A stretch of 53,653 nucleotides of DNA, taken from positions 1 to 53,653 of the forward strand of contig JAJZHK010000015.1 of assembly GCA_021804565.1 (NCBI GenBank). Reading direction: 5' to 3'. Below the pieces are notes generated by a model, which saw only the letters and a list, made by a program, of their open reading frames with translations, was not told where the DNA came from and did no database searches. Both the position numbers and the translations under genes were made by a program. This document shows positions 2-53,653 of the stretch, one piece after another (the stretch's first letter is position 1; every line of letters begins with the position of its first letter). Origin of the DNA: Pseudomonadota bacterium (lineage in GTDB: Bacteria; Pseudomonadota; Gammaproteobacteria; Pseudomonadales; Moraxellaceae).

Positions 2-448
2 AGCCTGCTCACGCTGTTGCCGGTCGCTCAAGCCAACGATGTTACGCCAGCCACCGGCAGCAAAAGCATGAGTTTTGCGCAGCTGGCCGCCGACGCAGGC
101 GCTCATCCAGGCGTGAGCGCGACGCCGACGCAGAACAGCCCCAAGCCTGCACCGCCGGCCCCGACTGAAGCCGTCAGCACCAGCCTCGTGCCTGCGCCTG
201 CCACATTGACCCTGGCACAACGACAGGCACAAGATGAGCTCAACAATGCCAAACGCCTCGACAGCGTCAACCGTGATCTGCTCGCTGACAAACAAAGGCA
301 GGCGATCCAGATCGAGCAGCTGCAAACCCAGGTCGCCGCATTGCGCGCCGATCGCAGCAACGAAGGTATCCGTGAAGGTGCCCTGGCGGTCATCGCAGGC
401 TTTCTGATGGGCTGGTTTTTTGTTGGATCGCGGCGCAAGTCCTGGTGA
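2..448 (+). CDS. Membrane-anchored coiled-coil protein, 5' end outside window
   Basis: The reading frame is open to the left edge, so the true start lies upstream. The first visible residues (SLLTLLPVAQA) look like the end of a signal peptide cleaved after AQA. A Pro/Ala/Thr-rich stretch follows, then a Gln/Leu-rich coiled coil, then one transmembrane helix (GALAVIAGFLMGWFFVG) and a short basic tail (SRRKSW). The coiled coil, membrane helix and basic tail recall the end of YgiM/TIGR04211-type proteins, but the SH3 domain of that family is absent from the visible part. Its stop overlaps the GTG start of mnmC (GTGA), which suggests translational coupling. Function unknown. Confidence 0.6.
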   Translation, partial: SLLTLLPVAQANDVTPATGSKSMSFAQLAADAGAHPGVSATPTQNSPKPAPPAPTEAVSTSLVPAPATLTLAQRQAQDELNNAKRLDSVNRDLLADKQRQAIQIEQLQTQVAALRADRSNEGIREGALAVIAGFLMGWFFVGSRRKSW

Positions 449-2265
449 ATTCATCGGCCTTTTCAGCCGCCCGACTGAGTTGGCAGGAAGGCGGCCTGTA
501 TTCGCAGGACTACGCTGACGTCTACCACCAGCGCGATCATGCCCTGGCGGAGAGTGAGCATGTTTTTCTGGCCGGCAATGGCCTCCCCGATCGCTTCGCC
601 GAGCACGATGAATTCGTCATCGCCGAGCTGGGCTTTGGCACGGGTCGTAATTTCCTCAACACCTGGCGCCACTTTCACGGTCAGCACCTGACCTATGTCG
701 CCACCGAACTGCATCCTATCGATGCCCAGAGTCTCGCCCATATCCATGCATCGGGACCCCTGCACGAATACGCACAACGCCTGCTCAAACGCTGGCCCCT
801 GTGTCTGCCTGGCATACATGCCATCGAGCTGACGGCCCAGGTACGCCTTATCCTGCTCTGGGGTGACAGCCTGGACATGTTGCGACGACTCGATCTGGAA
901 GTGCACGCCTGGTACCTGGACGGCTTCGCTCCACGTAAAAACCCAGCCATGTGGTCTGCCGAAATCTGCCAGGAAATCGCTCGTCTCAGCGGCCCCCACA
1001 CCCGTCTTGGCAGCTATTCTGTGGCCGCCGAAGTGCGCCAGCGCCTGAGTGAGCACGGCTTCATCTGCACCCGCCGTCCAGGACTGGGTCACAAGCGTCA
1101 TTGCCTGCAGGCGTTTTATCAAGGACCTTGGCGTACGGTACGAGCACCCGCTTATATCGATCCACCACGATGGCCGCAACCTCATCGCGTGCTCATCTTG
1201 GGGGCAGGCCTGGCCGGCTGTGCCGTCGCCCATGCCCTGCGTCGCAGTCTCTATCGGGGCGACATCGTACTCATCGATGGTCGCGGGATCGCCCAGGGTG
1301 GCTCGGGCAATCGCGTCGGACGCGCCGTACTGCGTGCTCGTGACTGGCAGGGCCTCCCCGATGCATGGCGCGCCCACGCTTTCCTCTACGCCGAACGCGC
1401 CTGGCGGGAAAGCCCCTGGGATCTGCGGCAGGGATGGTGGGAAGCCGGTGAAGCACCGTCCTGGGCCTATGCAGAAAAACCTTTCAGTGCAGCCGGCAGA
1501 CCAGGTTTTTTTCGACATCTCTTCGGCGCTCAACTGTCACCGCTGCAGCTCTGTCAGCACTGGAGTCGCGATATCGAGCTAAAGATCATGCAGGTCAGCA
1601 GCATCACCGGGCTCGCTCAGGGCTGCTATCAACTGCAGGACGCCACCGGCTACAGCATCCAGGGCGATGCCCTCATCCTGGCCGGCGGCGCTTATCTTGA
1701 ACCACGATGGCAACCCGCGGGCCTGCAGAAAGTTGCCGGCCAGGTCGAATGCCTGCCCTGGTCAGGAGCACGCGATATGTGGGGCGGTAGCAGCTATGCC
1801 ATTGCCGATGGGGAGCATCTGCTCTACGGCGCCAGCTTCGATCGTCAAGACAGCAGGGAAGAACCTTGTGACCTGGACAGCCAGGCCAATGATGCGGCGC
1901 TGCAGCGCCTGCACATCACGGCGGGGCCACTGCATCTGCCAGCACAGCGTCAGCGACGTCGCAGCCTGCGTCTGATGAGCCCCGACCATCTGCCGCTGCT
2001 GGGTGCCTGCCCGGATCTGCCACAGGCAGAACAAGACTACGCCGATCTACGTCATGGCTGGCGCCGTCACCACCAGGCGCCCACCTATGCACCTCACTTC
2101 TACCTCAATCTGGCGCATGGTTCACACGGACTCAGCCAGGTCGAGCTGGCCGCCGACCATATCGTGGCTCAGCTTTTAGCGCAGACTTCGCCGCTCCAGC
2201 TCCCCCACCTCAGACAGATCCATCCCCTGCGTTTGCTCCTGCGCCAGCTGAAAAGAGGTCCATGA
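445..2265 (+). CDS. mnmC: MnmC, bifunctional tRNA wobble-uridine modification enzyme
   Basis: Converts cmnm5(s2)U34 of tRNA to mnm5(s2)U34 in two steps: the C-terminal FAD-dependent oxidase removes the carboxymethyl group and the N-terminal SAM-dependent methyltransferase adds the methyl. The methyltransferase half (about residues 1-235) shows ELGFGTGRNFLNTW and WYLDGFAPRKNPAMW. The oxidase half begins with a dinucleotide-binding motif (GAGLAGCAVAHAL, about residue 250), followed by GSGNRVGR and a C-terminal AHGSHGL block. At 606 residues it is slightly shorter than the E. coli protein (about 670) but has both halves. The GTG start overlaps the preceding stop. The gene converges on the minus-strand coiled-coil gene, 40 bases away. 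Confidence 0.95.
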   Translation: MNSSAFSAARLSWQEGGLYSQDYADVYHQRDHALAESEHVFLAGNGLPDRFAEHDEFVIAELGFGTGRNFLNTWRHFHGQHLTYVATELHPIDAQSLAHIHASGPLHEYAQRLLKRWPLCLPGIHAIELTAQVRLILLWGDSLDMLRRLDLEVHAWYLDGFAPRKNPAMWSAEICQEIARLSGPHTRLGSYSVAAEVRQRLSEHGFICTRRPGLGHKRHCLQAFYQGPWRTVRAPAYIDPPRWPQPHRVLILGAGLAGCAVAHALRRSLYRGDIVLIDGRGIAQGGSGNRVGRAVLRARDWQGLPDAWRAHAFLYAERAWRESPWDLRQGWWEAGEAPSWAYAEKPFSAAGRPGFFRHLFGAQLSPLQLCQHWSRDIELKIMQVSSITGLAQGCYQLQDATGYSIQGDALILAGGAYLEPRWQPAGLQKVAGQVECLPWSGARDMWGGSSYAIADGEHLLYGASFDRQDSREEPCDLDSQANDAALQRLHITAGPLHLPAQRQRRRSLRLMSPDHLPLLGACPDLPQAEQDYADLRHGWRRHHQAPTYAPHFYLNLAHGSHGLSQVELAADHIVAQLLAQTSPLQLPHLRQIHPLRLLLRQLKRGP

Positions 2266-2305: not shown

Positions 2306-4156
2306 TCAAGCCCTGCGCTGCCACCAGCGTTTTGCCACCTCGACCTGCCTGGGTGCAACGGGTAAGGGCACCGACGCTGCTGCAGGTTCCGGGCGACGAG
2401 CCAGATCGATCTTGATCTCCAGCACCTGATGACGCAACTGATCGATCAAGGGCCGCCAGCTCTCGTCTTGCGGAGCCAGCTCCTGCTGCATATTCATTTC
2501 CTGGATTTCCATCTCGATGTGCTGCAGGCGCGCCTGCCAGTCCTGTTTTTCTCGCTGCAGCAGGGTCTGGTCTTGCCGTGCCTGCTGCAACAACCACTGA
2601 TGCTCTTGGCGCCCCAGCTTGAACTCACGCAACTCCAGCTCAAATTCCTTGAGCTTATGCATGGCCTTGTGTGTCAGCTGCTGCCAGTGCTGGACCTGGG
2701 TCACATGGGCTTGCAGGCTCTCCTGCTGCTGCAGGTTCAAGGCCTGTGCCTGCTGGTACTGAAGCTGCCCATCGCGCAGTTGCTCTTGCAGTTCTTGGGT
2801 ATGCAGGGCATAAGCCGCCGCAGACGCCTCCAGTTGGGCTTGCAGTTGCATATGACGGCTATGCGCCTGGGCAAGATCCGACTCACGCTCAGCCTGGGCT
2901 TCAATGCGTTCGAGCAGCCCGCTTTCACGCTCAGCCTGGGTTGCAGCCAGTCGACACAAACGATCCAGCTCCTCACGACTGCTACGACAGCTGTGATCAG
3001 CCTCCTGCAATCGCGATTCCTGCTCTTGCAGGCGCTCCTGATAGGCCAGCTGGACCTGCTGTTGCTGCGCCAGGATCAGGCTGGCTTGCTGCTGGGCCTG
3101 CTCCATATCCTGTAAACGCATCCACAGACTTTGCACCTGTGACAACAGTCCCTGGGTCTGAGCCTGCTGCTGCTGCGCGCTGATCAGGGTCGACGCTGCC
3201 TGTTGCTGAAGCTGCTCCTGCTGCTCCAGACAAGGCTGCAGGCGTGACTCCAGGTCAGCCAGACGCTGCTGCCGCTCGCTCAGCTCAGAAGCTTGTGCGG
3301 CGATCTGCACGTGGATCTTCTGCTGTTCATGCCAGGACTGCTCATGCTGCTCCTGAAGCTGCGTGCTGCGCTGAAGATGAGCGACTGTTTCCGTACGCAA
3401 GACCTGCACCAGCTGCTCACAATGCTGCAGCGCCGCTTCATAATCCTGCCATCTTGCCTCAACGTCCTGCGCCAGCTGCACCTGCTGCCCGGCACGCCGG
3501 TCCTGCTCATCGAGGCGCTCCTGCAGTCGCCCGCTCAGGCTCTGCAACGCCAGGGACCAACGCCCTTGCTGATCGAGAGCCTGCTCTGTTTTTTGCCACA
3601 GCGCCTGCAGGCGCTGATTCTGATCCTGATCCTGGCGCTGCACACCCTCAAGTGTCCGCAGTTGTGCTTCCAGGGCCTCGGTACGCTGCAGCCACTGTTG
3701 CTCACGCACTTCCTGCGCAGCCAGCACCTGCTGCAGAGCCTGCCACATCTGCTGCTGGGCCTCGCCTTGCACCACCAGCTGCCTTTTCAGCTCATGCTGC
3801 TGTTGCGCCTGCTGCTCGCCAAACTGCTGGCGCCAAGCCTGCTCTTCGCGCTGCTGCTCTTGCAACTGCCGCCCCAAGCGGGCAGTTTCTGTACGCCCCT
3901 GCTCATCACCCCGCAAAAGCGTGGCCAGTTGGGTACGGGCGTCATCGTCGAGAGCACGCAAGTCTGCCGCCAAACGAAAAATATCACGCTGCATACGGGC
4001 AACGATGCTGGCGTTTTTTTCCTCATAAGCGTGAAGCTGCTTTTGCACAGCCAGGCCGGCCTCATGCCAGCCGATCTTGTAAGCCGGGTGCTGGAGGAGT
4101 TCGGACCTCGCCTGGCGTGACTTTGCAGCGGTATCAAGGGGCGGTATGGCTGTCAT
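2306..4156 (-). CDS. Large Gln-rich coiled-coil protein of unknown function
   Basis: A 616-residue protein that is almost wholly predicted coiled coil from about residue 85 to 580, built of Gln, Glu, Leu, Arg and Ala, with no signal peptide or membrane segment seen. The first 85 residues (HPAYKIGWHEAGLAVQKQL and onward) and the last 40 are less repetitive, and the end is basic (KRWWQRRA). I prefer the ATG at 4156 over an upstream TTG at 4195 because a GTGAGAG stretch lies just before it. CAG codon richness creates long antisense open frames that are not genes. I do not recognise a family; a scaffold, polar-localisation or chromosome-associated role is possible but unproven. The AT-rich gap with DnaA-like boxes lies just upstream. 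Confidence 0.8.
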   Translation of the reverse strand: MTAIPPLDTAAKSRQARSELLQHPAYKIGWHEAGLAVQKQLHAYEEKNASIVARMQRDIFRLAADLRALDDDARTQLATLLRGDEQGRTETARLGRQLQEQQREEQAWRQQFGEQQAQQQHELKRQLVVQGEAQQQMWQALQQVLAAQEVREQQWLQRTEALEAQLRTLEGVQRQDQDQNQRLQALWQKTEQALDQQGRWSLALQSLSGRLQERLDEQDRRAGQQVQLAQDVEARWQDYEAALQHCEQLVQVLRTETVAHLQRSTQLQEQHEQSWHEQQKIHVQIAAQASELSERQQRLADLESRLQPCLEQQEQLQQQAASTLISAQQQQAQTQGLLSQVQSLWMRLQDMEQAQQQASLILAQQQQVQLAYQERLQEQESRLQEADHSCRSSREELDRLCRLAATQAERESGLLERIEAQAERESDLAQAHSRHMQLQAQLEASAAAYALHTQELQEQLRDGQLQYQQAQALNLQQQESLQAHVTQVQHWQQLTHKAMHKLKEFELELREFKLGRQEHQWLLQQARQDQTLLQREKQDWQARLQHIEMEIQEMNMQQELAPQDESWRPLIDQLRHQVLEIKIDLARRPEPAAASVPLPVAPRQVEVAKRWWQRRA

Positions 4157-4799
4157 TTGTTTGACTCTCACGGGTCTATGGTGCAGTCCTGACAAAGTAA
4201 AGCAAAGAGCATGCCAGCCAGCGCCAAGGGCGTCATATTTATGGCGTCATGAGCGAGATCCGCCAAAATAGCCGGATCAGACCTTGACAAGTCACGCAGC
4301 ATCGTGAAAGTCAGCTTAACAGCATGATCTTGGGCCTTAAAGCTCATGTGCTTTCTAGCTTATTCACTGTCCACAAATTCTGTGGATAAGTCTGTGTAGA
4401 AATCTGCAGCAAGTGACGCAAAGGCGCATACAGCCTTATGCGACAGACACTTGACCATTTTTTGAACAAATTAATTTTTCATAAAAATCAACAAGTTATA
4501 AAAGGCAAGCGTTATTGATGTAGGAATAAACAGATTTTTGACCTTGAACTCCTGCCATAGGCTGCAGGCGCAAGTTTGGTGCATAACTTTGTTCGACAAA
4601 ATCTGACGATTCTATGACAGCACGTCGCTCAGCCGACTTTGGCATCAACTTTTCATCAAGGCGACATCTCAATGAAATTTAAGATTTATTTTATGCTTTG
4701 CCGGGTTCGGGGTCAGAAAGAGGAAGAAATCCTGCATGTCGCTCGTGCATCGACAGAGCCTTCTTGTCTTTGCCACGGCTCTCACCTAAGCTTAGGACC
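4157..4799. other. 643-base AT-rich intergenic gap between divergent genes
   Basis: The longest gene-free stretch of the window, clearly richer in A+T than its surroundings, between the coiled-coil gene (minus) and the transglycosylase gene (plus). It must hold both promoters. The middle has a cluster of DnaA-box-like nonamers and an IHF consensus match (separate entry). Three GATC sites lie at about 4256-4328. Open frames starting near 4698 are only non-ATG extensions of the next gene. I see no tRNA or clear small-RNA gene. Confidence 0.6.
4360..4586. promoter_or_regulatory. DnaA-box cluster with IHF-like site and AT-rich tract
   Basis: At 4381-4389 the minus strand reads a perfect TTATCCACA. 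Neighbouring near matches to TTWTNCACA are TTATTCACT at 4360-4368 (plus), TTCTACACA at 4393-4401 (minus), a weaker CTGTCCACA at 4367-4375 (plus) and TTATGCACC at 4578-4586 (minus). A very AT-rich run covers about 4456-4505, and inside it 4486-4498 matches the IHF consensus WATCAANNNNTTR exactly. DnaA boxes, IHF site and AT-rich tract are the parts of a gammaproteobacterial oriC, but dnaA, dnaN, mnmG and rpmH are not nearby. A DnaA-titrating locus or DnaA-controlled promoter is as likely. Confidence 0.4.
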
Positions 4800-5504
4800 A
4801 TGTACCCAAAATTGACACGGACAGGACCTGAACCTCTGGGAGGTTTGCACAGCGCTCTGCGTTGGGGCTTGGGCATGGCTGCCCTCGCCTTGCTCAGCCT
4901 GTCGGCCTCAGCTGGGCATGTTTATACCTTTAAAGATGCCGATGGCAACATCCTGCTGACCAATATGATCAATCCGGATGGTCGCCCGCAAGGCATGGCC
5001 TTCAAACGCTACAAAGTCCTCAGCAAGGTGGTCTGGTACCCGGATAGCAATGTACACAGCTACCATAACTGGGGGCACGATGAGGCCGCCATACCGGGGG
5101 CTTTTCATCACAATGTCCACGCTTACGATCAGCTGGTGGCGGCACAGGCCGCTGAGAATGGACTCGACAAGGGGCTGGTGCTGGCGGTGATCCACACCGA
5201 GTCAGGCTTCAACCCTTACGCCATCTCGCCACCTGGCGCCCGCGGATTGATGCAGCTGATGCCTTCGACAGCGCGACGCTACCATGTCCTCGATGCTTTT
5301 GACCCGGCCCAGAACATACGTGCCGGCACGCACTACCTGCATGACCTCTTGCAACGCTTCAAGAGCCTCGAGCTGGCTCTGGCCGCCTACAATGCCGGCG
5401 AGAAAAATGTCGAAAAATACGGCGGCATTCCCCCTTTCAGTGAAACCCAGGATTATGTGCAGAGAGTGCTCAGCCGCTACCACCATCTCTACGGCGGCGT
5501 CTGA
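4800..5504 (+). CDS. Secreted lytic transglycosylase with N-terminal DUF4124-like segment
   Basis: A periplasmic murein-cleaving enzyme of the soluble lytic transglycosylase (SLT, goose-lysozyme-like) family. With the ATG at 4800 the protein has 234 residues: a signal peptide (hydrophobic core GMAALALLSLSASA), a DUF4124-like strand (HVYTFKDADGNILLTN), then the SLT domain. The catalytic Glu is in HTESGFNP, followed by GARGLMQLMP, the AGTHYLHDLL helix and ALAAYNAGEKNV, all standard for this family. AGGA lies close upstream of the ATG, although the spacing is short. Non-ATG starts upstream would put 34 residues before the signal peptide and are less likely. The stop abuts that of the convergent gene (TGATCA). 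Confidence 0.9.
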   Translation: MYPKLTRTGPEPLGGLHSALRWGLGMAALALLSLSASAGHVYTFKDADGNILLTNMINPDGRPQGMAFKRYKVLSKVVWYPDSNVHSYHNWGHDEAAIPGAFHHNVHAYDQLVAAQAAENGLDKGLVLAVIHTESGFNPYAISPPGARGLMQLMPSTARRYHVLDAFDPAQNIRAGTHYLHDLLQRFKSLELALAAYNAGEKNVEKYGGIPPFSETQDYVQRVLSRYHHLYGGV

Positions 5505-5750
5505 TCAGCTCATAAAGAAGCTGAGCACGGCGACCACGGTCAGCAGCAACACCGCTATCAGCGCATAGAGCAGCCAGGGCCACTCGGCCACCGGCCGTCG
5601 CGTTTGAGCTGTGGCCGTCGACCCAGCCTCCGTCATGGCTTCCTGCAAAAGACGCTTTTGCGCTTCAAGGTAGGCGGAGGTCTCGAGCTGGCCGGCTTCA
5701 TGCTGCAGACCCAAGGCCAGAAGCTGGCGATTGATGCGCTCATAGCTCAT
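5505..5750 (-). CDS. Small tail-anchored membrane protein
   Basis: An 81-residue protein: an amphipathic N-terminal half (MSYERINRQLLALGLQHEAG), a short Thr/Ala linker and one C-terminal membrane helix (WPWLLYALIAVLLLTVVAVL) ending with SFFMS. The start codon overlaps the stop of the PP2C phosphatase gene (ATGA), so the two are probably translated together and may work together at the membrane. The longer open frame read through from inside the phosphatase gene is not used. No family recognised. Confidence 0.7.
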   Translation of the reverse strand: MSYERINRQLLALGLQHEAGQLETSAYLEAQKRLLQEAMTEAGSTATAQTRRPVAEWPWLLYALIAVLLLTVVAVLSFFMS

Positions 5751-6499
5751 AAGGCAGCCGCCTCTTGACTGACAAAGATGAAACTGAAGTTGTCGGGGGC
5801 ACCTAAGGCCAAGCAGCGCGACTTGATGTGAGCAAGAGCCAGCTCGGGCATCAAGGCCATGATCTGCTCCAGCTCGGTATCCGCCAGCAAAGCATGCACC
5901 CCGTCCGTGCACAGCAGGAAGCGGTCGCCCTCCTGACAATCGATCAGCTGCACATCGAGCGTCAGACGGTCTTCTGCACCGACCGCACGCAAGATGCGGC
6001 TGCGCAATTCCGCGGGGATCTGCAAAGGAGACTGACCACGATCCAGGGCCTGCTGATACATGGAATGGTCGCGCGTGAGCTGCTGCAACACCCCCTGGCG
6101 CCAGCGATACAGGCGCGAGTCACCTGCCCATAGAACAGCCGCCCACGGCATGCGCAAGATCAGAGCGACAGCTGTGGTGGCCAGGGTGCGTCCTTTGAGC
6201 TCTTCCTCCGCATAAAGACGTAACTGGCTGTTGAGTGCAAGCCAAGCCTCTTCCAATTCGAAAAGCTGATCCTGCAGTCCTTCATAGACATGCACCTGGG
6301 CACTGATCTCGACCAGGGCCCGACTGGCACGGTCACCGGCTGAACCGCCACCGACACCATCGGCCACGACCCAAAGACCCGCCTCCTGTCGAGTCAAGAC
6401 AGCGTCTTCATTGACCTGGCGACAAAGACCGGTGTCACTCAATCCACGTCCATACCAGGGGTGCACCTGGGCCTGCTCAAGGAGCCTTACATTGGACAC
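5747..6499 (-). CDS. PP2C-type serine/threonine protein phosphatase
   Basis: A cytoplasmic metal-dependent phosphatase of about 250 residues. Motifs in order: CRQVNEDAV, VADGVGGGSAGDRAS, WAGDSRLYRWR with LTRDHS, DRFLLCTDGV and the final PDNFSFIFV; the Asp residues that bind the two metal ions are present. The start is GTG, with a good GAGGA ribosome site 7-8 bases upstream, just after the lptG stop. The order is lptG, this gene, then the small membrane protein, all tightly packed. No matching kinase is seen in the window. An FHA-domain cyclase lies about 6 kb away on the other strand, but a link is only a guess. Type VI secretion genes, which often carry such phosphatases, are absent. Confidence 0.9.
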   Translation of the reverse strand: MSNVRLLEQAQVHPWYGRGLSDTGLCRQVNEDAVLTRQEAGLWVVADGVGGGSAGDRASRALVEISAQVHVYEGLQDQLFELEEAWLALNSQLRLYAEEELKGRTLATTAVALILRMPWAAVLWAGDSRLYRWRQGVLQQLTRDHSMYQQALDRGQSPLQIPAELRSRILRAVGAEDRLTLDVQLIDCQEGDRFLLCTDGVHALLADTELEQIMALMPELALAHIKSRCLALGAPDNFSFIFVSQEAAAL

Positions 6500-41982: not shown

Positions 41983-43840
<1,858 letters not shown>

Positions 43841-43844
<4 letters not shown>

Positions 43845-44584
43845 CGCGGTGTATTGAGTACCCCTACCGGCAGTTCCGAAAACCAGTTGATAAAACGCTC
43901 AACGTCGGCACCCCGATAAATCGCCCCATGCTGGGGGCATAGCATGTCAATCTTGAGCGCTGCGGCGCGCTCGCACCAGACCAGCTTAGCGGTCTGTGAG
44001 CCCATCCATCGCTGGTGAAAATGCTTGGCATGCCTGATATGCTCGTCGAAGTCACGCACAAAAACATCGGCTGAACCTGGCAGCATGGCCGCACCCACAT
44101 CGCCAGAAAAAAGAATACGAGCGACTTCATCGTAAAGATGAAAGTTCCCCGAAGAGTGCAGGTAATGCGCTGGAAGGGCCTGCAAACGTAAGGCGCCCAA
44201 AGATATCTCGCTCCCCTCGTCAGGCAAGGAGATAAAGGTTTGCTCGTGACCACCAAAATGGGTGACGAAAGTTCCCCATAACCAACTCAGATAACAGCGC
44301 AGCTCAGGATTCACTTCAAGCCAAAGCGCCAAAGACGAGATGATGTCAGGGTCCTGGTGCGATGCGAAAATATAACGCAGATGGCGTGGATCAACGATCT
44401 CACTCAGCGCCGCAAAAACCGCTGGAAAGATCTCCATGCCGCCCGGATCGGTTAACAAAAGGTGCTCACCATCGCTGACAACATACTCATTGGTGTCGAT
44501 GACGTCGTTACGCTTGTCAGGGTCGCGCGTCAGAACATGCCAGCTATGTGTGCCTTGCTCATATATTTTGACAGCCTTTTTCAT
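43841..44584 (-). CDS. ODP-like beta-lactamase-fold diiron protein
   Basis: A 247-residue metallo-beta-lactamase-fold protein of the flavodiiron/ODP type. Metal-ligand candidates: H76-x-D78-x-D80 (SHQDPDII), H140 or H143, D162 (FSGDVG) and H219 (PQHG). Classical flavodiiron enzymes have HxExD; the variant HxDxD and lack of a flavodoxin domain fit the oxygen-binding diiron proteins used as chemotaxis sensors in spirochaetes (Treponema ODP). NEYVVSDGEHLLLTDPGG is the fold's first strand pair. Start overlaps the receptor-fragment stop (ATGA), so the two proteins are probably made in equal amounts. It is the last gene of the chemotaxis operon. A hydrolase role cannot be excluded. Confidence 0.75.
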
Positions 44585-45192
44585 ATTGGCGCTCCTGGCG
44601 CGGCATCGATCTCTTCAATATTGTTGCGCATCATCTGGTGCCCTGTTTGTACGATACGCATGGTTTTATCCAGCATCGGCGTGATATCACCGATCAACTG
44701 CGCAAACTGGTTAGCCACTTCGGTCAGTTGTCCCCGCCAGTCGCCGCCATAAGCGGCCTCGATCTTGGCACCACGACAGATCACATCGGCAAAGCGCAAA
44801 AGCTCCTCGGCTTGCTCCACCACCTCACGTAACCGTCCTTCAAGTGCATACAACTCACTTCTCATCGTTTGCATGCCATGACGCATATTCAGCGCCAGCC
44901 CCGCACGTAAAGCATCTGCCAACAAAATAGCTTGGCGCTGCTGACGCAGGGCCCGGCTGGTGAGCAGTATATGTGCAAATGTGGTTTGCCGCAGATGCCC
45001 CATGCACTGCGCCATCCCCAAACTGAACTCCCGCAGTTCGTCAGTGATGATGCTAAATCCAGCGGCTTGCTGACCGACACGCTTGGCCAGCAAGGTGGCA
45101 TTGATCGCCAGACGCTCGATACGCAAGGCGCCTAAGCTGATCACTTTGACATTTTCATTGAGATCAATGATGCGCGCGAGATCTTCATTCAT
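44581..45192 (-). CDS. Half-hairpin chemoreceptor-like soluble protein
   Basis: A 203-residue, wholly helical protein without signal or membrane segment. Residues about 24-58 (IERLAINATLLAKRVG, then QQAAGFSIITDELREFS) align with the tip and ascending arm of the chemoreceptor hairpin ([30 protein letters not shown]), but the descending arm is too short to make a normal hairpin. The rest forms further helices (LREVVEQAEELLRFAD and onward) with no PAS or HAMP domain. GTGAGG precedes the ATG. Stop overlaps the ODP gene start. It may couple ODP to CheA/CheW, but this is inference. Confidence 0.7.
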   Translation of the reverse strand: MNEDLARIIDLNENVKVISLGALRIERLAINATLLAKRVGQQAAGFSIITDELREFSLGMAQCMGHLRQTTFAHILLTSRALRQQRQAILLADALRAGLALNMRHGMQTMRSELYALEGRLREVVEQAEELLRFADVICRGAKIEAAYGGDWRGQLTEVANQFAQLIGDITPMLDKTMRIVQTGHQMMRNNIEEIDAAPGAPI

Positions 45193-45203
45193 AATGGCCT
45201 CAC

Positions 45204-46247
45204 TCAGTGCGCCAGCTGCGCCATCAGCGCAGCAGCAATACGGTTCAGGGGAAGTACATCCACCGCTGCTGCCAGCTGTATCGCTGCTCTGGGCATACCA
45301 AAGACGATACAGCTCGACTCATCCTCGGCGCACGTCCAGGCCCCGGCCTGGCGCAGCTTGAGCAAACCTTCTGCACCATCTTTACCCATACCGGTCAATA
45401 AAATGCCGCATGCCTTCTGCGCGGCGACTTCTGCGACGGACTGCATCAGCACATCGACGCTGGGCCTATGGCGATTGACAGGCTCACTGTCCGAAAGACG
45501 GCAGACAGAAGTCTGTGCATCTTTCTTCTCCAACAGAAGATGCTGCCCTCCTGGCGCTATATAGACATGGCCCCTTTGCAACACCTCACCGTCTGCAGCC
45601 TCTTTGACGGACAGTGCGCACAAACCATCCAGCCGCCGCGCAAAAGAAGCGGTGAACTCAGGCGGCATATGTTGGGCAATCAGTATAGGCGGCATCTGTG
45701 CAGGCAAGGCTGTGAGCAAGGCCTTGATGGCCTCTGTCCCCCCGGTTGAAGCCCCGACCACCACCACTTTATCGATGCGTGTGTTCAGGGCAGGAGCAGC
45801 CGGCAAAGTCGACACCGCCTGAGGTCGCAGGCGAGCTGATGCGGCGGCACGTAAAATCTGACGCAAGTCCTCTGCATACGCGTGCATATGTTGCGCTTGC
45901 CTGAGATCAGGCTTGGCGATCACCTCCACAGCACCCAGTTCGAAAGCACGTAAAGCCACCCCGCTACCGCGCACGGTCAAGGTTGAAATCATGACCACCG
46001 GGGTGGGCCGCAAATGCATGAGGCGCCGCAAAAATTCCAGCCCGTCCATACGCGGCATCTCCACATCAAGCGTGATGACATCGGGGTTGGTCGCCCTGAT
46101 CACTTCTCGTGCCTGCAAGGGGTCACTGGCCTCTCCGAGCACCTGCAGATCTTCGCTATCTTCAACGATAGCGCGCAGGATCTGCCGCATCAGTGCCGAA
46201 TCATCGACAATCACCACGCCTGTCCTGGTCACCTCAGCTCTCCTCAT
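45204..46247 (-). CDS. cheB: CheB, chemoreceptor methylesterase/glutamine deamidase
   Basis: A 347-residue response regulator. Receiver domain: D15/D16 acidic pocket, phospho-acceptor D61 (TLDVEMPRMDG) and K112-region (AKPD). Catalytic domain: Ser in VVGASTGGTEAI, His in IAQHMPPEFT, Asp in LTGMGKDGAEG. CheA phosphorylation should activate removal of methyl groups from the receptors. Encoded between cheD and the receptor fragment. Confidence 0.96.
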   Translation of the reverse strand: MRRAEVTRTGVVIVDDSALMRQILRAIVEDSEDLQVLGEASDPLQAREVIRATNPDVITLDVEMPRMDGLEFLRRLMHLRPTPVVMISTLTVRGSGVALRAFELGAVEVIAKPDLRQAQHMHAYAEDLRQILRAAASARLRPQAVSTLPAAPALNTRIDKVVVVGASTGGTEAIKALLTALPAQMPPILIAQHMPPEFTASFARRLDGLCALSVKEAADGEVLQRGHVYIAPGGQHLLLEKKDAQTSVCRLSDSEPVNRHRPSVDVLMQSVAEVAAQKACGILLTGMGKDGAEGLLKLRQAGAWTCAEDESSCIVFGMPRAAIQLAAAVDVLPLNRIAAALMAQLAH

Positions 46248-46268
46248 GGCGCCTTAGCATCAAGCCGC

Positions 46269-46871
46269 TCAAAACAGATCGACATCCCCCGATACCTTGT
46301 CCTTGCTCAGACGTGACACATACTCTCGTTCACGCTGAATAATCGTATCGTTATGCGCTGACTTGAGACGCTTGACCATCACCCGCCCGCTACTGGGAAA
46401 AAAATAGACCTTGCGCGGGTAAATATCGAGAAGATCACGAGCGATGATCTCGATACCCTCCTTGCGCAGGTAAGACTCAACAAATTCGGCATTTTGCTCA
46501 CCAATATTGGAAACCGTAAACCCGGCCAGCACTTGCCCACCACCAAAGACCTTGGCTTGCAGTCGGTCGCGCTGCCCCCCTGCCTTGATGACATGGTTGA
46601 TGAGCAACTCCATGGCGTAACTGCCATAGCGGGCTGGAGCGGACACCGTATCGAGATCACCCAGGTGCAAATCCGGCAACATGAAGTGGTTCATACCGCC
46701 CACTTTTTGCACGGGATCACGAATACAAGCGGCAACACAGGACCCCAGCACGGTCACGATGACCATGTCGCGAGCCGTCACATAGTACTGGCCGGGCAAA
46801 ATCTTGGCGGCCGCCATCGAGAAATGTGGGTCAAAATAGAGTGTCGGCTGATGCACGTCATGCCCACTCAT
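46269..46871 (-). CDS. cheD: CheD, chemoreceptor glutamine deamidase, VDLF tail
   Basis: A 200-residue CheD. The active-site Cys is in VTVLGSCVAACI and the His in GGMNHFMLPD. It deamidates receptor Gln residues to Glu so that they can be methylated. The C-terminus GDVDLF matches that of the partial receptor at the window's right edge (GSVDLF). The ATG at 46871 follows AAGGAGG and overlaps the cheR stop (ATGA). Confidence 0.95.
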   Translation of the reverse strand: MSGHDVHQPTLYFDPHFSMAAAKILPGQYYVTARDMVIVTVLGSCVAACIRDPVQKVGGMNHFMLPDLHLGDLDTVSAPARYGSYAMELLINHVIKAGGQRDRLQAKVFGGGQVLAGFTVSNIGEQNAEFVESYLRKEGIEIIARDLLDIYPRKVYFFPSSGRVMVKRLKSAHNDTIIQREREYVSRLSKDKVSGDVDLF

Positions 46872-47698
46872 GCGCGCCTCCTTAGACTGTATGTCGTGCG
46901 ACCACAAGCCTCCCACCACGCACTGCCCTGACCGAGAACCTCTGAGTGTCCGAGAAACAGTCGTCCCTCTGGCCGAAGCAAGCTTGCAAAGCGCTCCAGC
47001 AGGCGCTCTTGCGTGGGTCTGTCGAAATAAATGAAGACATTACGACAAAAAATAGCGTCCAAAGGAGCTTCGATCCGCCATAGTGAATCGAGCAGGTTGA
47101 TCTGCTCAAAGAGCAGCATATGACGTAATTCATCACGCACCCGTACTTGGCCTTCCTGCTGACCGCGTCCGCGCAGGAAAAATGCACGCTTACGCTCCAG
47201 GCTCAGCTGCTCGACAGCCTTGAGTGGATAGACCCCGGTGGCAGCCCTGCGCAGAACGTCCGTATCAATATCACTCGCCCAAATCTGTACTGGCGCATGC
47301 AGACTATGCAAGGCTTCAGCTGCCGTGATAGCCAGGGAATAAGGCTCTTCTCCTGTCGACGCTGCTGCACACCAAATACGTACTTGACCATAGGCCTGCA
47401 GCCAATCGGGCAATAAAGCTGCCAAGGTATGAAAATGATGCTCTTCACGAAAAAAAGAAGTCAGATTGGTGGTCAGTGCGTTGACGAAATGCTGCCATTC
47501 CTGGTCGCCCTGGTCGGAGTTCAACAAAGACAGGTAGTCGGCAAAATCACGCAATTGCAAAGCACGCAGTCTTCGCGCCAAACGCGAATAGACCATGGAC
47601 TTCTTCTGGTCGCTCAGGGCAATACCGGCGTGCTCGTAAAGCAAGGCACATATTTTTTTAAACTGCGCCTCGCTGAAAGCAAATTCGGTCTCTTCCAA
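46868..47698 (-). CDS. cheR: CheR, chemoreceptor glutamate methyltransferase
   Basis: A 276-residue SAM-dependent enzyme that methylates receptor Glu residues. N-terminal helical domain (ICALLYEHAGIALSDQKKSMVYSR pattern in segments) then the SAM site IWCAAASTGEEPYSLAI and the RNVFIYFD motif. The start appears to be TTG at 47698, since no ATG occurs before residue 35, which would delete the N-terminal domain. The pentapeptide of the neighbouring receptor is the likely docking site. Confidence 0.95.
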   Translation of the reverse strand: MEETEFAFSEAQFKKICALLYEHAGIALSDQKKSMVYSRLARRLRALQLRDFADYLSLLNSDQGDQEWQHFVNALTTNLTSFFREEHHFHTLAALLPDWLQAYGQVRIWCAAASTGEEPYSLAITAAEALHSLHAPVQIWASDIDTDVLRRAATGVYPLKAVEQLSLERKRAFFLRGRGQQEGQVRVRDELRHMLLFEQINLLDSLWRIEAPLDAIFCRNVFIYFDRPTQERLLERFASLLRPEGRLFLGHSEVLGQGSAWWEACGRTTYSLRRRA

Positions 47699-47701
47699 GG
47701 C

Positions 47702-48184
47702 TCAGATCTCAACCGAAGCTGTATCCATCAGATACATGTCAGGACTACCAAGTAGCTTATCGATATCGACGAGTATCACCATACGCTCATCCAGGGTGCC
47801 CAGGCCACGGATATAACGGGTATCAAGAGCCGACCCAAACTCGGGAGCAGCCCTCATCTGTGCGGCTTCCAGCCCGATGACATCAGACACGCCATCAACC
47901 ACGATACCTACCATGCGCGTGCCCAAGGTGACGATGATGACCACGGTGAATTGATCATAGCTTGGTGCATCCAAACCGAACTTGAGGCGAAGATCGACGA
48001 TAGGGACAATGACCCCGCGCAAGTTGATGACCCCCTTGATAAAAGCTGGAGCACTGGCAATTGCGGTCACCTGGTCGTAGCCGCGTATCTCCTGAACCCG
48101 CAAGATATCGATGCCGTATTCTTCACGCCCAAGCTTGAACACCAGGTATTCAGAGCGCTCCTCGTGAGCCACATGTTCATTCAT
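47702..48184 (-). CDS. cheW: CheW, chemotaxis coupling protein
   Basis: A 160-residue SH3-like coupling protein linking receptors with Che[25 protein letters not shown], then [23 protein letters not shown] and the [16 protein letters not shown] end. ATG codons at 48190 and 48184; I choose the second because GAGGGG directly abuts the first but is 6 bases from the second. The receptor gene ends 11 bases upstream. Confidence 0.95.
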
Positions 48185-48194
48185 GCTCATCCCC

Positions 48195-50702
48195 TCAAAA
48201 CTCGGCCCAATCATCCTCTGCCTGCGGAGCAGGGAAAGACGATGGCGATATGGACTTGCTGGATGCAGCCAGAGTCGTTGTGGCCCTTTGACCGAGTGTT
48301 GGTGTCATCACCGGCAGGCCCTGCTTTAACTTGAAGATCGCAATCGCCTGCATCAGCATCTGTGACTGCTCTTTGAGGCTCTCGGCAGCAGCTGCAGCCT
48401 GCTCGACCAGGGCGGCATTTTGCTGAGTGACATCATCCAGCTGCGTGATCGCCACATTAACCTGCTCGATACCACTGCTCTGCTCGGCAGAAGCCGATGA
48501 GATATCGGCCATGATGTCACTGACTTTCTTGACCGAGCCGACCACATCATCGATGGTCTGTCCGGCACTACTCACCAGACGCGCCCCTGACTCAACCTTG
48601 CTCACCGAGTCATTGATCAGGCTTTTGATATCTTTGGCCGCCGAGGCCGAACGCTGGGCGAGGTTACGAACCTCCGAAGCGACGACGGCAAATCCTCGTC
48701 CCTGTTCACCCGCGCGCGCCGCCTCGACAGCGGCATTCAAGGCCAGGATATTGGTTTGGAAAGCGATGCCATCAATGACCGAGATGATATCCACGATCTT
48801 ACGCGAAGACGTATTGATCTCCTGCATCGTATGCACCACCTGCTCCACCGCCAGACCACCACGCCTGGCCACTTCGCTGGCCTCGCGAGCGACCTGATTG
48901 GCCTCCTTGGCATTGGCCGCATTCTGCCGTACCGTGCTGGTCAGTTCCTCCATGCTACTTGCCGTTTCTTCAAGATTGGCCGCCTGCTGCTCAGTACGTG
49001 CCGACAGATTGCTATTGCCTGAAGCGATTTCCGACGCTGCAGTCGCGATCGTATCACTGGCCTCTCGAACAGTTTTTACGGTTTCTTGCAAGTTGAGCAT
49101 GCTGTCATTGAAAGCGGTCCGCAAGGTCGCAAACTCACCCTGCAGATCGATATCGATTGTTTGCGACAGATCGCCTCGAGCCAAAGCGTTGAGACCACTG
49201 CTGACAGCATCTATAGCCTGCTTTTGCGCTGTGATATCAAGGGCATATTTGACGACTTTGATCACCTTGCCGGTGAAGTCAACAATAGGGCTATAACAGC
49301 CCTGCAGCCAGACCACGCGCGCCCCCTGACCACGACGCTCAAACTGGCCACTCTGAAATTCTCCTTGCCCTAAACGCTCCCAGAACTGACGATAGGTGTC
49401 CCCTTGCAAGCCCTCGGATGGCATAAAAATACTATGATGGCGACCTGCAACTTCTTCAGCCCGGTACCCCATGATACGAAGAAAGGTCTCATTCGCCGCT
49501 ATAATTTGACCGGTGGGGGTAAACTCCACCACCCCCATACTGAAGTCCAGTGCTTTGCGCTGAGCATCAGCCGCCAGGGAAATATCCTTGAAATGGCTGA
49601 CGTCGCTCTGTATCGAAATGAATCGCTCGATCTGCCCTTCACGATTACGCACAGGATTGATGGCAAGGCTGGCCCAGTAATAGCTGCCATCTTTGCGATA
49701 GTTGAGGATGTCCTCAACAAAAGGCTGGCCGGCGTCCAGTCGCTCACGGATACGCTTTTTGGCGCTGACATCGGTCAAGGCGCCCTGTAAAACCTCCCCG
49801 GGCTTCTTGCCTAGCATTTCTGCCTGGGTATAACCGCTCATGCGTTCGAAGCCGCGATTGACAAACTGGACCTTGCCCTGAGCGTCGGTAATGATCACCG
49901 AGTTATCCGACTCGTGCGCCACCAGTGACAGCAAATGTGACTCTTCTCGTAAGGCCACCTGCTCCGTCACATCGTGCAAAAATGCTGTATACAGGGTACG
50001 TCCAGCCAGTTTGACCCGGCTTAAGGACAGTGAAACTGTCAAGACTTGTCCGTCAGCACGCTCCAGCTTGACCTCGCGCGCCTTACCGACGATATGATCA
50101 ACGCCGTTTTGTCGATTGGCATTCACGTAAGCATCGTGCTGTGGCTGTATTGCCATAGGCACCAGCATCTTCACATTCTTGCCCATCACCTCGGCGCGTG
50201 GACGTCCCCACAAGCGCTCCGCAGCGGCGTTGAAAAAGGTCACATGATTATTTTCATCGATGCTGACAACAGCATCGAGGGCCTGTTCCAAGGTCTGCTC
50301 GATGATGGCCTGAGCTTCACGTTCGGCGGTGACATCCTGAACAAAGGCGGAATAACAGGTTTGCGCACCCTCACCATGTTGCGTCAGGGACAGCCGACAC
50401 CATACCTTGCTGCCGTCACTGCGTTCGACTTCAACGATGCGCGATGTATTGACGATACGATCCTGACCCGTACGCCGATGATGATCGATATACTCATCGT
50501 GTTGCGCCTGATGCATACGCGGCACCAGTTTGCGCACATTCTGTCCTATCACCTCATCACGACGATAGCCCCAGAGCCGCTCGGCAGCATCGTTGTAAAA
50601 AGTGATTCGGTTGCTGGCGTCAATGAGAACGACAGCATCAAGAGCTCTCTCCAGCGTGGTTTGATACTGCTGCGCATGTCTGATCGTGTCCCAGATTTTC
50701 AT
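48195..50702 (-). CDS. Soluble four-PAS chemoreceptor with FixL/DosP-like PAS pair
   Basis: An 835-residue cytoplasmic receptor without membrane helices. PAS1 (about residues 10-125) and PAS2 (132-245) are alike; each has a His in a HDEYI/HDAYV segment (H68, H189) and an Arg exactly 20 residues later (R88, R209), as in FixL H200/R220 and DosP H77/R97. PAS3 (255-370) is LOV-like but without the photoactive Cys ([10 protein letters not shown]). PAS4 (375-490) follows, then a HAMP-like linker and the hairpin ([20 protein letters not shown]). C-terminus DWAEF fits the CheR-docking pentapeptide. It occupies the place of Aer2 in the Che2 cluster. Haem binding is inference. The ATG at 50702 follows GGAGGAG. 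Confidence 0.9.
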
Positions 50703-50762
50703 CCTGCTCTCCTCCACGGACGCAAACCGATCACGTCCGTACCATAAGTCTATAAGCCATGG

Positions 50763-52682
50763 TCAATCCTGGCTCTTACGCACCAATGCCTCCACATCGA
50801 TGATGAGGGCAACACGACCATCTCCCATGATCGTCGCACCCGAAACACCATCCACCCTACGAAAATTGTCTTCCAGGCTTTTGATCACCACCTGGTGCTG
50901 CCCCAATAGCTCATCCACCAGCAGTGCTGTGCGCATCTGGTCGGACTCCAGAATGACAAAAACACCGGCCGTGATCGTCGGAGGCAAACGCTCGACACCA
51001 AACAGACGGTCTAAAGTCATGACCGGCAGGTAGTCTCCACGCACATGGATCAGTTGACCCTGAGCACTCACCGAGCGCAGGTCGGCCGCACCTATCTGTA
51101 AAGACTCGACGACAAAACTGAGTGGCAAGATATAGGTCTCGGCACCGACACGCACAGCCATGCCATCAAGAATGGCCAGGGTCAAAGGCAGGCGTATGGT
51201 CATGGTGCTACCTAAGCCCGGTTGCGACTCAATATCGATACGAGCTGCCATGGCGGTGATATTGCGACGAACGACATCCATCCCCACACCGCGCCCGGAG
51301 ACATCACTGACCACATCGGCCGTCGAAAATCCGGGCTGAAAGATCAACTGCCAGACCTCATCGTCACCCATGCCCTCACTCACACTTAAACCACGCTCAA
51401 GAGCCTTGGCCAGTATTTTTTCACGGTTCAAGCCCGCACCATCATCCGAGACCCGGATCAAAATATTGCCGCCTTGATGAAAGGCCTTCAGTGTTAATGT
51501 GCCCTGTTCAGGCTTGCCCAATTCACGTCTGCGCCCGGGGCATTCTATACCGTGATCAAGGCTGTTACGCACCAGATGGGTCAAAGGATCTGCCAGCTTT
51601 TCAATCACACCACGGTCCAGTTCAGTCGCCTCACCCAGGGTCACAAGCTGTACCAGCTTGCCAAGTTTTTGTGCCGTATCCCGAACCATACGAGGGAAGC
51701 GACTGAAAACAAAGGAGATAGGAATCATGCGTATCGACATCGCCGCTTCCTGCAACTCTCGGGTGTTACGCTGTAATTGCGCGACACCCTGGTGCAGACG
51801 CTCGTGCTCGCTGCTATCAAGACCTAGCACCATCTGCTGCAGCATGGACTGGGTAATGACCAGTTCACCGACCAGATTCATGATCTGGTCAATTTTCTCA
51901 ACCGCCACGCGCAAGGTACTGGCCTCATGGGTCGATGCGGCTGTTTTGATCGAACTTGTGGGCTTCTCCGGCATAAGGGCCGCTGGAGCAGGCTGAGGCT
52001 CGACAAAAAATCCCCAACCCGGGTCCTCGGCAGGGATGCCTTCAGGCTCAGAATCAGTGTCAAAAAGGCCCCATCCTTCATCGACCTCAAGCCGTCGCCC
52101 TTGCGGATCAAAAAGGGAAAACTCCTCAGCACGCAGCACAAAACCAAGATCTGACTGCAAAGCCTGGGCATTGAGGTCGCCGCTATAAAACCAGTCGTCT
52201 CCTTGGCGCTGCCAGTTTTCGCTGAGCAAACGCTCCTGCAGGTCGCCATGCTCATCTTTCGGCGGCCAATGCAGACGCCAGGGCGACCTCAAGTCGACGT
52301 CTGACAAATGATGCAAGGCCTGCTGCAACTGCTGCGAGGCGGTGCTATCGCCAAGAATGCCCTGCTGATGCTCTTCCACCATACGTCGCAGTTGATCACC
52401 GGTACGCAAAAACAGGTCGATCATCTCGCTACGCAGATGCAAATTTCCCTGTCGAATCTTATCCAGCTGATTTTCCAGGGCATGCGTCAGTTCGGCAATA
52501 TCCCCCAACCCAAAAGTCGCTGCACCACCTTTCACCGAGTGAGCCGCTCGAAAAATCGCGCTGAGATCCTCGGGATCCGGTCTGCTGACATCGATCGCCA
52601 ACAGCACCGCCTCCAGTTGCGCCAGATGCTCGAGTGCCTCTTCAAAAAAGGTCGGCAAAAATTGCGACAAATCTATGCTCAT
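50763..52682 (-). CDS. cheA: CheA, chemotaxis histidine kinase
   Basis: A 639-residue kinase. P1 has the phospho-acceptor H48 (AAHSVKGGAATFG). The middle (about residues 125-230) is a divergent P2/linker containing two short repeats, EGWGLFDT and PGWGFFVE. P3 starts at LRVAVEKIDQIMNLVGELVI. P4 shows the N box HLVRNSLDHGIE, G1 VSDDGAGL and G2 SGRGVGMDVVRR. The P5 CheW-like domain ends the protein (TYILPLSFVVESLQ). It phosphorylates CheY and CheB. The ATG follows GGGAAG. Confidence 0.96.
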   Translation of the reverse strand: MSIDLSQFLPTFFEEALEHLAQLEAVLLAIDVSRPDPEDLSAIFRAAHSVKGGAATFGLGDIAELTHALENQLDKIRQGNLHLRSEMIDLFLRTGDQLRRMVEEHQQGILGDSTASQQLQQALHHLSDVDLRSPWRLHWPPKDEHGDLQERLLSENWQRQGDDWFYSGDLNAQALQSDLGFVLRAEEFSLFDPQGRRLEVDEGWGLFDTDSEPEGIPAEDPGWGFFVEPQPAPAALMPEKPTSSIKTAASTHEASTLRVAVEKIDQIMNLVGELVITQSMLQQMVLGLDSSEHERLHQGVAQLQRNTRELQEAAMSIRMIPISFVFSRFPRMVRDTAQKLGKLVQLVTLGEATELDRGVIEKLADPLTHLVRNSLDHGIECPGRRRELGKPEQGTLTLKAFHQGGNILIRVSDDGAGLNREKILAKALERGLSVSEGMGDDEVWQLIFQPGFSTADVVSDVSGRGVGMDVVRRNITAMAARIDIESQPGLGSTMTIRLPLTLAILDGMAVRVGAETYILPLSFVVESLQIGAADLRSVSAQGQLIHVRGDYLPVMTLDRLFGVERLPPTITAGVFVILESDQMRTALLVDELLGQHQVVIKSLEDNFRRVDGVSGATIMGDGRVALIIDVEALVRKSQD

Positions 52683-52717
52683 TCGCGACTTCCCATCCAG
52701 CGTGCACCCAGATTTTT

Positions 52718-53083
52718 CTATCCCAGGACTTTCTTCACCACGTCAAGAAGGCGTGCTGGATCGAAAGGCTTGACCAGCCACCCCGTAGCACCTGCTGCCT
52801 TACCCTGCGCTTTCATGGCATCGCCAGCTTCGGTGGTCAGCATCAAGATCGGCGTCGTACGCGTACCAGGGTTTTGACGCAGGGCCTTGATCAAACTCAA
52901 ACCATCCATGCCTGGCATATTTTGATCGGTCAGTATGAGGTCCACTTTATGGCTCGTCGCCATGCGCAGGCCCGCTTGACCATCGCCCGCCTCAAGCACC
53001 GTATAGCCTGCGGACTTCAGGGTAAACATCACCATTTGCCTGATCGAAACCGAATCATCTACCGTCAAAATAACCTTGCTCAT
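52718..53083 (-). CDS. cheY: CheY, chemotaxis response regulator
   Basis: A 121-residue single receiver domain: D9 and D10 (TVDDS), phospho-acceptor D53 (LTDQNMPGMDG), conserved Thr at about 84 (MLTTEAGD) and K105 (WLVKPFDP). Phosphorylated form should bind the flagellar switch or other outputs. The ATG at 53083 follows GAGGGCGG. A separate CheZ gene is not present in the window. Confidence 0.96.
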   Translation of the reverse strand: MSKVILTVDDSVSIRQMVMFTLKSAGYTVLEAGDGQAGLRMATSHKVDLILTDQNMPGMDGLSLIKALRQNPGTRTTPILMLTTEAGDAMKAQGKAAGATGWLVKPFDPARLLDVVKKVLG

Positions 53084-53109
53084 AAGTCCGCCCTCACCCC
53101 CCAAAAGTA

Positions 53110-53652
53110 TCAGAATAGATCGACCGAGCCCTGTTCCATACTTTTCTGGCTGACCGGGGAGCTCTGACGCTGCTCCTGGATCTGCTTTTGCAGAGCTTCA
53201 GCCTCGCGGCGCAAAGCATGGATAACCTCCAGATTCTCAATCCCGGCATGGGCCACAGCCTCCTGCATATAACACTGCAAAATACCGCTGTAGCGCGTGA
53301 TCCACTGCACGCGGTTTTCGCTGAACAACAACAATTGCGATACCATGTCCTGAAACTGCAGAAGGGTCACCGCGTGCTCAGAACGCTGCTGTATACGCTG
53401 GACCAGATCATGCACCTCAAAGACAGCGTCTGCTGTCCGCTGCGACATTGCAGAGAAGTGCTGAATGATGCCCACCAAATGATCCTTGGCCTTGAGAACA
53501 TGGATCATGTCCTGTGAAGCCAGAGAGGCCACCTTCTCAGTCGCTCCGGAGATGGCCTGTGACACCTCATCAACGACGGTCCGTATGCGCTCGCTGAACT
53601 CACTGGTACGCATGGACAACTGCCGGACTTCATCAGCCACCACGGCAAAACC
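53110..53652 (-). CDS. Chemoreceptor C-terminal part, gene cut by the right edge
   Basis: Reads in frame to the right edge, where the first visible residues are GFAVVADEVRQLSMRTSEF, the ascending arm of a receptor signalling hairpin; the sensor part and start lie outside. After the arm comes an unusual helical tail with LLQFQDMVSQLLLFSENRV, whose FQDxxxQ pattern resembles the CheZ phosphatase active site (FQDLTGQ). The protein ends in GSVDLF, like CheD. In the P. aeruginosa Che2 cluster a receptor gene (cttP/PA0180) occupies this first position. Phosphatase function is speculation. Confidence 0.75.
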   Translation of the reverse strand, partial: GFAVVADEVRQLSMRTSEFSERIRTVVDEVSQAISGATEKVASLASQDMIHVLKAKDHLVGIIQHFSAMSQRTADAVFEVHDLVQRIQQRSEHAVTLLQFQDMVSQLLLFSENRVQWITRYSGILQCYMQEAVAHAGIENLEVIHALRREAEALQKQIQEQRQSSPVSQKSMEQGSVDLF

Positions 53653-53653
53653 A

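Follow-up and report, generated by a model that had tools for sequence, protein, structure and literature searches.

An ODP-family protein and a small receptor-like partner, likely carrying two signalling tips, are encoded together in a chemotaxis operon

The Treponema ODP is described as sensing oxygen for chemotaxis, and it is coupled to an MCP homologue without a membrane or sensor part. This partner, TDE2496, is able to modulate CheA and probably becomes part of arrays, and deletion of ODP leaves the CheA density more constrained, according to the parts of PMC7666581 drawn on here. Single-chain receptors are a second point of reference. The sections of PMC4692393 used here mention a soluble single-chain receptor of R. 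centenum and engineered Tsr~Tsr fusions, described as MCP signalling domains in single-chain form or as complete receptors fused together. From the same sections, the Tsr~Tsr receptors were made to manipulate the two subunits separately, and subunit swapping has been reported and must be considered. The locus analysed here resembles the Treponema TDE2498/TDE2496 system, as far as that description goes, in that the gene of an ODP is coupled to that of a receptor-like protein lacking membrane and sensor parts, and it resembles the single-chain receptors in that two signalling hairpins would share one polypeptide. Unlike the latter, as portrayed in those sections, our receptor-like protein (hereafter the mini-receptor) has about 200 residues, comprises the tip bundle alone, has unequal tips and is coupled to an ODP. 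Compared with TDE2496, which is known here by its description and could be of either type, it has 203 residues and, likely, two tips per chain. ODP-receptor coupling and single-chain receptors are therefore already known, and the candidate new part is a small, ODP-linked form with two unequal tips. A two-tip ODP partner was absent from the titles and abstract openings covered by our literature search, in which subscription literature was thinly represented and the 2019 PNAS paper on ODP fell outside the scope. That paper, by Muok et al., is said to describe the Treponema denticola ODP (TDE2498) with the receptor TDE2496, as well as a Thermotoga maritima ODP, and reportedly found a diiron site with a stable peroxo adduct and a role in oxygen/iron sensing.

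The window, by which we mean the whole 53,653-nucleotide stretch of DNA that was analysed, carries a che operon on its minus strand. The ORFs for the 203- and 247-residue proteins are the last two genes of this operon and sit directly after CheB (Table 1). The initial annotation had placed an ORF pair here with overlapping stop and start, and this was borne out, the two frames sharing 4 nt. Upstream of the CheY-like gene, at 53110-53643 (-), the contig end truncates a further receptor-like protein, leaving its C-terminal portion ('FQDMVSQLL'); against Pfam MCPsignal this fragment reached just 18.4 bits, over residues 2-42. No RNA families were detected at 43000-53653.

Table 1. Features of the che operon and of the ORF pair, in window coordinates
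Feature	Position	Strand	Basis
ODP-family protein, metallo-beta-lactamase fold, 247 aa	43841..44584	-	Pfam ODP E 1.2e-71; PDB 6qrq E 1.3e-64, 6qnm E 3.6e-53
H219 codon, presumed ligand position	43928..43930	-	Solved-chain alignment; invariant 6/6
D162 codon, presumed ligand position	44099..44101	-	Solved-chain alignment; invariant 6/6
H143 codon, presumed ligand position	44156..44158	-	Aligns with His of flavodiiron PWLH; invariant 6/6
H76-Q77-D78-P79-D80 codons, HxDxD motif	44345..44359	-	Sequence; invariant in 6/6 ODPs; identical in 6qrq and 6qnm
Overlap of 4 nt, receptor stop / ODP start	44581..44584	-	Read from ORFs
Mini-receptor, likely two-tip, 203 aa	44581..45192	-	61-member alignment; AF2 pLDDT 93.0, pTM 0.85; predicted four-helix bundle by structural match
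Likely tip 2, residues 138-173, degenerate (I144, invariant E145, A146)	44674..44781	-	hhalign window 137-187 vs canonical tip; shuffle control
Predicted far-end loop, residues 94-96, linking the two hairpins	44905..44913	-	DSSP of AF2 model
Tip 1, residues 22-56, near canonical (N31, R38, G40, G45, F46, E52, R54)	45025..45129	-	hhalign window 17-67 vs canonical tip
CheB	45204..46247	-	Pfam CheB_methylest E 6e-67 and Response_reg
CheD-like	46269..46919	-	ORF, named by eye; query in flank scan
CheR-like	46868..47698	-	ORF, named by eye; query in flank scan
CheW-like	47702..48214	-	ORF, named by eye; query in flank scan
PAS-type chemoreceptor, 840 aa, full-length signalling hairpin	48195..50717	-	ORF, named by eye; query in flank scan
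CheA	50763..52682	-	Pfam Hpt, H-kinase_dim, HATPase_c, CheW
CheY-like	52718..53104	-	ORF, named by eye; query in flank scan

Judged by its sequence, the 247-residue protein is a member of the known ODP family, far above chance. It scored 241 bits against Pfam ODP (PF19583; cut-off 27.2), covering positions 1-194 of the 194 in the profile, and matched solved ODP chains (Table 1), which confirms its original identification as ODP-like; it is the sole ODP-family match in the 2.5-Mb genome from which the window comes. The motif residues singled out beforehand (H76-Q77-D78-P79-D80 as HxDxD, H140, H143, D162 and H219) are all present, are invariant in six of six aligned ODPs and coincide with identical residues in the alignment with 6qrq and 6qnm. 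We take HxDxD, H143, D162 and H219 to be the metal-ligand positions. The pairing of H140 with H143 in the motif needed refinement: both are conserved, but alignment with a flavodiiron chain puts H143, at the ligand position, opposite the histidine of PWLH, and makes H140 an additional conserved histidine. Like the flavodiiron proteins 1vme and 1e5d, the protein has a metallo-beta-lactamase-type domain in which the motif positions align; unlike them, it shows no detected flavodoxin domain within its 247 residues, for which Pfam gives lactamase-type matches only. The HxHxDH motif, presumably that of the zinc metallo-beta-lactamase hydrolases, is absent from the protein, with HQDPDI in its place, and we know of no shown hydrolase activity for ODP-family homologues.

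The partner had been described as resembling only the tip and ascending arm of a chemoreceptor. The likeness to a receptor tip held: against Pfam MCPsignal (PF00015) the 203-residue protein scored 25.1 bits over residues 13-58, below the cut-off of 34.6, and 56 of the 61 members of the mini-receptor family matched MCPsignal at E values up to 0.01, one relative (L043) exceeding the cut-off with 35.4 bits. Pfam recognised no sensor or membrane family in the window protein. At tip 1 the sequence still follows the canonical hairpin tip of the PF00015 signalling domain, and this tip aligns with residues 79-126 of the PDB receptor chain 3g6b, about the middle of its 213 residues; we take 3g6b to be Thermotoga Tm14, a plain hairpin.

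What probably did not hold was the word 'only', since a second, degenerate tip was detected at residues 138-173, unreported by Pfam. We scanned 50-residue windows of the 61-member family profile with hhalign against a canonical-tip profile made from 34 receptors of the fetched loci, selected for a canonical tip. The first of two separate peaks lay at residues 17-67 (P 2.8e-20), the second at 137-187 (P 3e-6, probability 88). Between them, the windows that began at residues 57 to 89 gave probabilities below 1, and the six MCP windows outside the tip that served as a control reached 7.6 at most. The second match, which we consider moderately strong, runs without gaps across the tip turn. When the whole C-terminal half was aligned with the canonical tip the result was weaker (probability 45, P 2e-4); its score of 29.6 compares with 17.5 for the reversed profile, and was reached by none of 200 full-column shuffles and by one of 200 heptad-preserving shuffles, which came out above it. 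Tip 2 is recognised solely via the canonical receptor profile: compared directly, the two halves of the mini-receptor gave no match (probability 2.6), which leaves a duplication origin of the two tips unsupported. Because of this missing half-to-half match, and because tip 2 is merely suggestive in seven divergent family members (P 0.004), we regard a second tip in the 203-residue partner as likely rather than proven. Conservation in the 61-member alignment forms two blocks, being highest at both tips and falling at the far end; E145 is its only invariant residue, and N31, G40 and E145 are jointly present in 57 members.

AlphaFold2 models were obtained for the window protein (scores in Table 1) and for a spirochaete-labelled relative, L094 (pLDDT 93.8, pTM 0.86). 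Both predicted structures are single-chain four-helix bundles over nearly their full length. The best structural matches were the de novo bundles 5vjs/5vju for the window model (Z 19.6, rmsd 1.9, 183 residues) and 8d9o for the L094 model (Z 16.9, rmsd 2.2, 172 residues), all presumably single-chain four-helix bundles; 8a3k, which is one according to its title, matched the window model with Z 12.2 and rmsd 2.2 over 127 residues. Four-helix bundles being common, these matches speak for shape alone and not for function. Foldseek gave no match to the window model at E values up to 0.001, and its weak listings include the chemoreceptor chains 9a69 (rank 17) and 3zx6 (rank 46). Few receptor signalling chains appeared among the structural matches of either model, a scarcity that is uninformative because the structure library consists of single chains.

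According to DSSP, helix 1 of the window model is continuous through tip 1, where we infer a turn because the compact bundle match requires one; the L094 model has a helix break at residue 45. At tip 2 the helix breaks in both models. In an antiparallel four-helix bundle of the predicted kind, loops 1 and 3, which are the two tips, would share one end. The protein is thus, as modelled, apparently neither a normal receptor hairpin nor an unrelated fold. An ordinary MCP has one hairpin per chain and needs a dimer, whereas here one chain is predicted to make the four-helix bundle; the window protein also departs from PF00015 in scoring below the Pfam cut-off and in its helices of about 50 residues, which would leave little space for a methylation/adaptation region. 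With a second tip detected, we set aside the half-hairpin of the initial annotation for what are probably two short hairpins in one chain. A rival that stays with the half-hairpin idea has one tip only, taking the first 60 residues as the remnant and the rest as an unrelated helical scaffold, so that a receptor-like bundle would need two copies of the protein. That Pfam reports residues 13-58 alone and that a direct comparison of the halves gives no match would agree with it, but the gapless profile match at tip 2, the invariant E145 and the helix breaks there in both models argue for a second tip, and we judge the one-tip alternative to be quite improbable.

The family alignment is best read as complementary decay of the two tips. 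With positions numbered after E. coli Tsr, tip 1 conserves N381 (98%), R388 (77%), F396 (91%), V398 (88%), E402 (88%) and R404 (83%). In place of the IEAA Glu, its position 385 has L, I, V or M in about 86%. Tip 2 retains E385 (100%), I384 (86%) and A386 (91%); there, Ser is the usual residue at 381 in place of Asn, Tyr at 388 in place of Arg and Gln at 398 in place of Val, with Leu instead of Phe at 396, and Glu at 402 is kept in 36%. In an ordinary receptor dimer, as set out in the sections of PMC4692393 used here, the identical subunits differ in place, one lying at the trimer axis and one toward CheA/CheW. A single chain would be able to specialise these two subunit positions, and such specialisation may have occurred here: as the tips have become unequal, each may retain one dimer-subunit job, either the trimer-axis contacts or the contacts with CheA/CheW.

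We then asked how widely the partner occurs and how tightly it is bound to ODP. A search of 58 genomes returned it in one congener (73% identity) and as four short divergent relatives, each adjoining an ODP. Scanned with the ODP alignment, species genomes yielded at least 592 matches, 581 of them confirmed; as the best 80 of the 581 were used as loci, these represent the closest relatives and not a census. Within this set the partner adjoins ODP in 79 of 79 assessable loci, 76 of them scored by script and three by inspection, namely L042 (ODP cut by the contig end), L095 (coordinate filter) and L060; L055, whose sequence begins 138 nt upstream of ODP, was left out of the count. By their record titles the carriers include Betaproteobacteria, Methylococcales and Neisseriales, together with MAGs labelled Leptospirales, Spirochaetia, Myxococcales and Deltaproteobacteria. 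Of 82 loci, 75 have receptor and ODP genes that overlap or stand apart by no more than 30 nt (spacing -30 to +30), -4 being the commonest value, and ODP and receptor distances co-vary (0.84), which shared ancestry alone may explain.

A phylum sample of 299 genomes contained 61 with an ODP-profile match at E values up to 1e-30. Six of the 299, the window's genome included, had a match above 350 bits, and in all six the partner adjoins; the 350-bit line between this ODP subfamily and the rest was set after the scores were known. Thirty ODP matches of the sample were fetched as loci, and among the 24 weaker ones (L120-L143) 21 lacked the partner, one was broken (L121) and two were cut just upstream (L129 and L132). 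The partner appears to be tied to one ODP subfamily, and ODP-family (PF19583) proteins without an adjoining partner exist in the sampled genomes.

The neighbourhood survey also addressed the link with chemotaxis. Of the 79 loci, 20 had at least one of CheA, CheB, CheD, CheR and CheW, which we count as core che genes, in the fetched flank; five more had CheY- or MCP-type matches only, and 54 had no che match in fetched flanks that were often cut by contig ends. In L048, L050, L061, L062 and L077 the pair lies between CheW and CheR. Its position thus varies among che operons, as if the pair had moved as a unit. The CheA dimerisation domain was found in 32 of 33 chosen pair genomes versus 228 of the 299 of the phylum sample (p 0.003, with kinship uncorrected and pair genomes included in the background); the 33 were hand-picked, 12 from the G series and 21 from the 80 loci, and one of them, G288, has a broken pair. 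The remaining pair genome, G046, has a 1572-residue CheA-like frame. The initial annotation had named homologues outside chemotaxis operons, with hydrolase activity, as evidence against its reading. The 54 flanks and the partner-less ODPs partly provide homologues outside chemotaxis operons, and all 33 pair genomes encode the CheA domain or, in the one case, the CheA-like frame.

These data bear on the alternative that ODP has no sensing role and works as an enzyme that consumes oxygen or NO, or as a hydrolase, the helical protein being a mere subunit. ODP-family proteins that do without a receptor, and a fold shared with the flavodiiron reductases, would suit an enzyme; yet no flavodoxin domain was found for electron supply, and both the MCPsignal matches of 56 of 61 partners and the core che genes in 20 of 79 flanks point away from it, and we hold this alternative to be very improbable. 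Another alternative is that the pair feeds the CheA of a different pathway, serving type IV pili or other functions and not swimming. The 54 loci without a che match in the fetched flanks are in line with this, as are the several CheA-domain matches, up to 10, in many of the tested genomes and the very long CheA-like frame that is the best match in G046. The window and the 20 loci, however, place the pair with CheA, CheW, CheR, CheD or CheB genes resembling those of the window, whose flagellar role is putative, and a different pathway seems to us rather doubtful.

We favour the view that the pair probably forms a portable module with input to the chemotaxis kinase, and that the 203-residue protein in it is a miniature single-chain receptor-tip pseudo-dimer that serves the ODP. 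The mini-receptor, which has no recognised membrane, HAMP or sensor part, would fold its two short hairpins and one connecting loop into a four-helix bundle that mimics a receptor dimer at its kinase-contacting end alone. The co-translated ODP would bind iron and oxygen at its diiron site, change its shape or association and so contact the mini-receptor, and CheA would be altered via the tip bundle. ODP would accordingly bind the mini-receptor directly, the bundle would insert into the array, any direction of the response being likewise putative, and the pair as a whole would sense oxygen and control the kinase. This retains much of the original suggestion that the pair adds an oxygen or iron sensor to the operon without a normal receptor: the ODP family, the receptor-like partner and the che operon all agree with it, and oxygen or iron as the input, argued by analogy, would fit Treponema. 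A wider claim, that a single-chain, asymmetric mimic of a dimer tip is widespread in nature, that its hairpins divide the trimer-axis and kinase-contact roles and that it acts as a portable adaptor bringing into CheA arrays a soluble diiron oxygen/iron sensor that is itself no receptor domain, is put forward more tentatively, and we would lean slightly against it.

The main rival to the input module is competition by the mini-receptor, which as an antagonist or cap would occupy the receptor site of CheA/CheW without activation, so that ODP would tune array order or kinase output by sequestration. What the mini-receptor retains is just the end that contacts the kinase, and some canonical residues are missing from each tip, as might be expected of a cap; the more constrained CheA density in Treponema without ODP, as given in the consulted parts of PMC7666581, also agrees with it. 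Against it, the same parts state that TDE2496 can modulate CheA, likely in arrays, although TDE2496 may or may not be of the two-tip type. We consider a cap unlikely. If instead the input-module reading is true, evolution would have split the roles of the receptor-tip subunits within a small soluble single-chain protein, and the pair would offer a simple two-protein system for how a diiron sensor signals to CheA. It would also suggest a way for two genes to carry oxygen sensing together from one operon to another, and the pair may plug oxygen sensing into the machinery that controls swimming.

Several relatives departed from the common arrangement. In the metagenome assembly L060 a mini-receptor at 2993-3514 lacks both tip segments in frame, perhaps through an assembly fault at conserved stretches, and in L121 the pair is spread over several frames, with partner pieces of 88 and 155 residues, and is apparently decayed or misassembled. 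Natural fusions with other domains were not borne out: the long upstream frames of L043, L073, L081, L084 and L105 gave no domain but MCPsignal, the one other match, to PPE in L043, staying below its threshold (16.5 bits vs 26), and with no extra domain the long extensions in these five relatives were taken as open frames. A very divergent partner (E 3.5e-8 against the family profile) lies at 815-1495 of L119 beside a subfamily ODP; its genome, G154, has three ODP-profile matches at E values up to 1e-30. In Methylobacter tundripaludum SV96 (L044), two tandem mini-receptor-like genes, at 4577-5194 and 5420-5998, stand upstream of the ODP among che genes. Finally, in L122 a receptor-free ODP-family protein (1465-2214, minus strand) is flanked by two proteins of 133 and 121 residues that look Roadblock/LC7-like by eye, which suggests another type of partner for ODPs.
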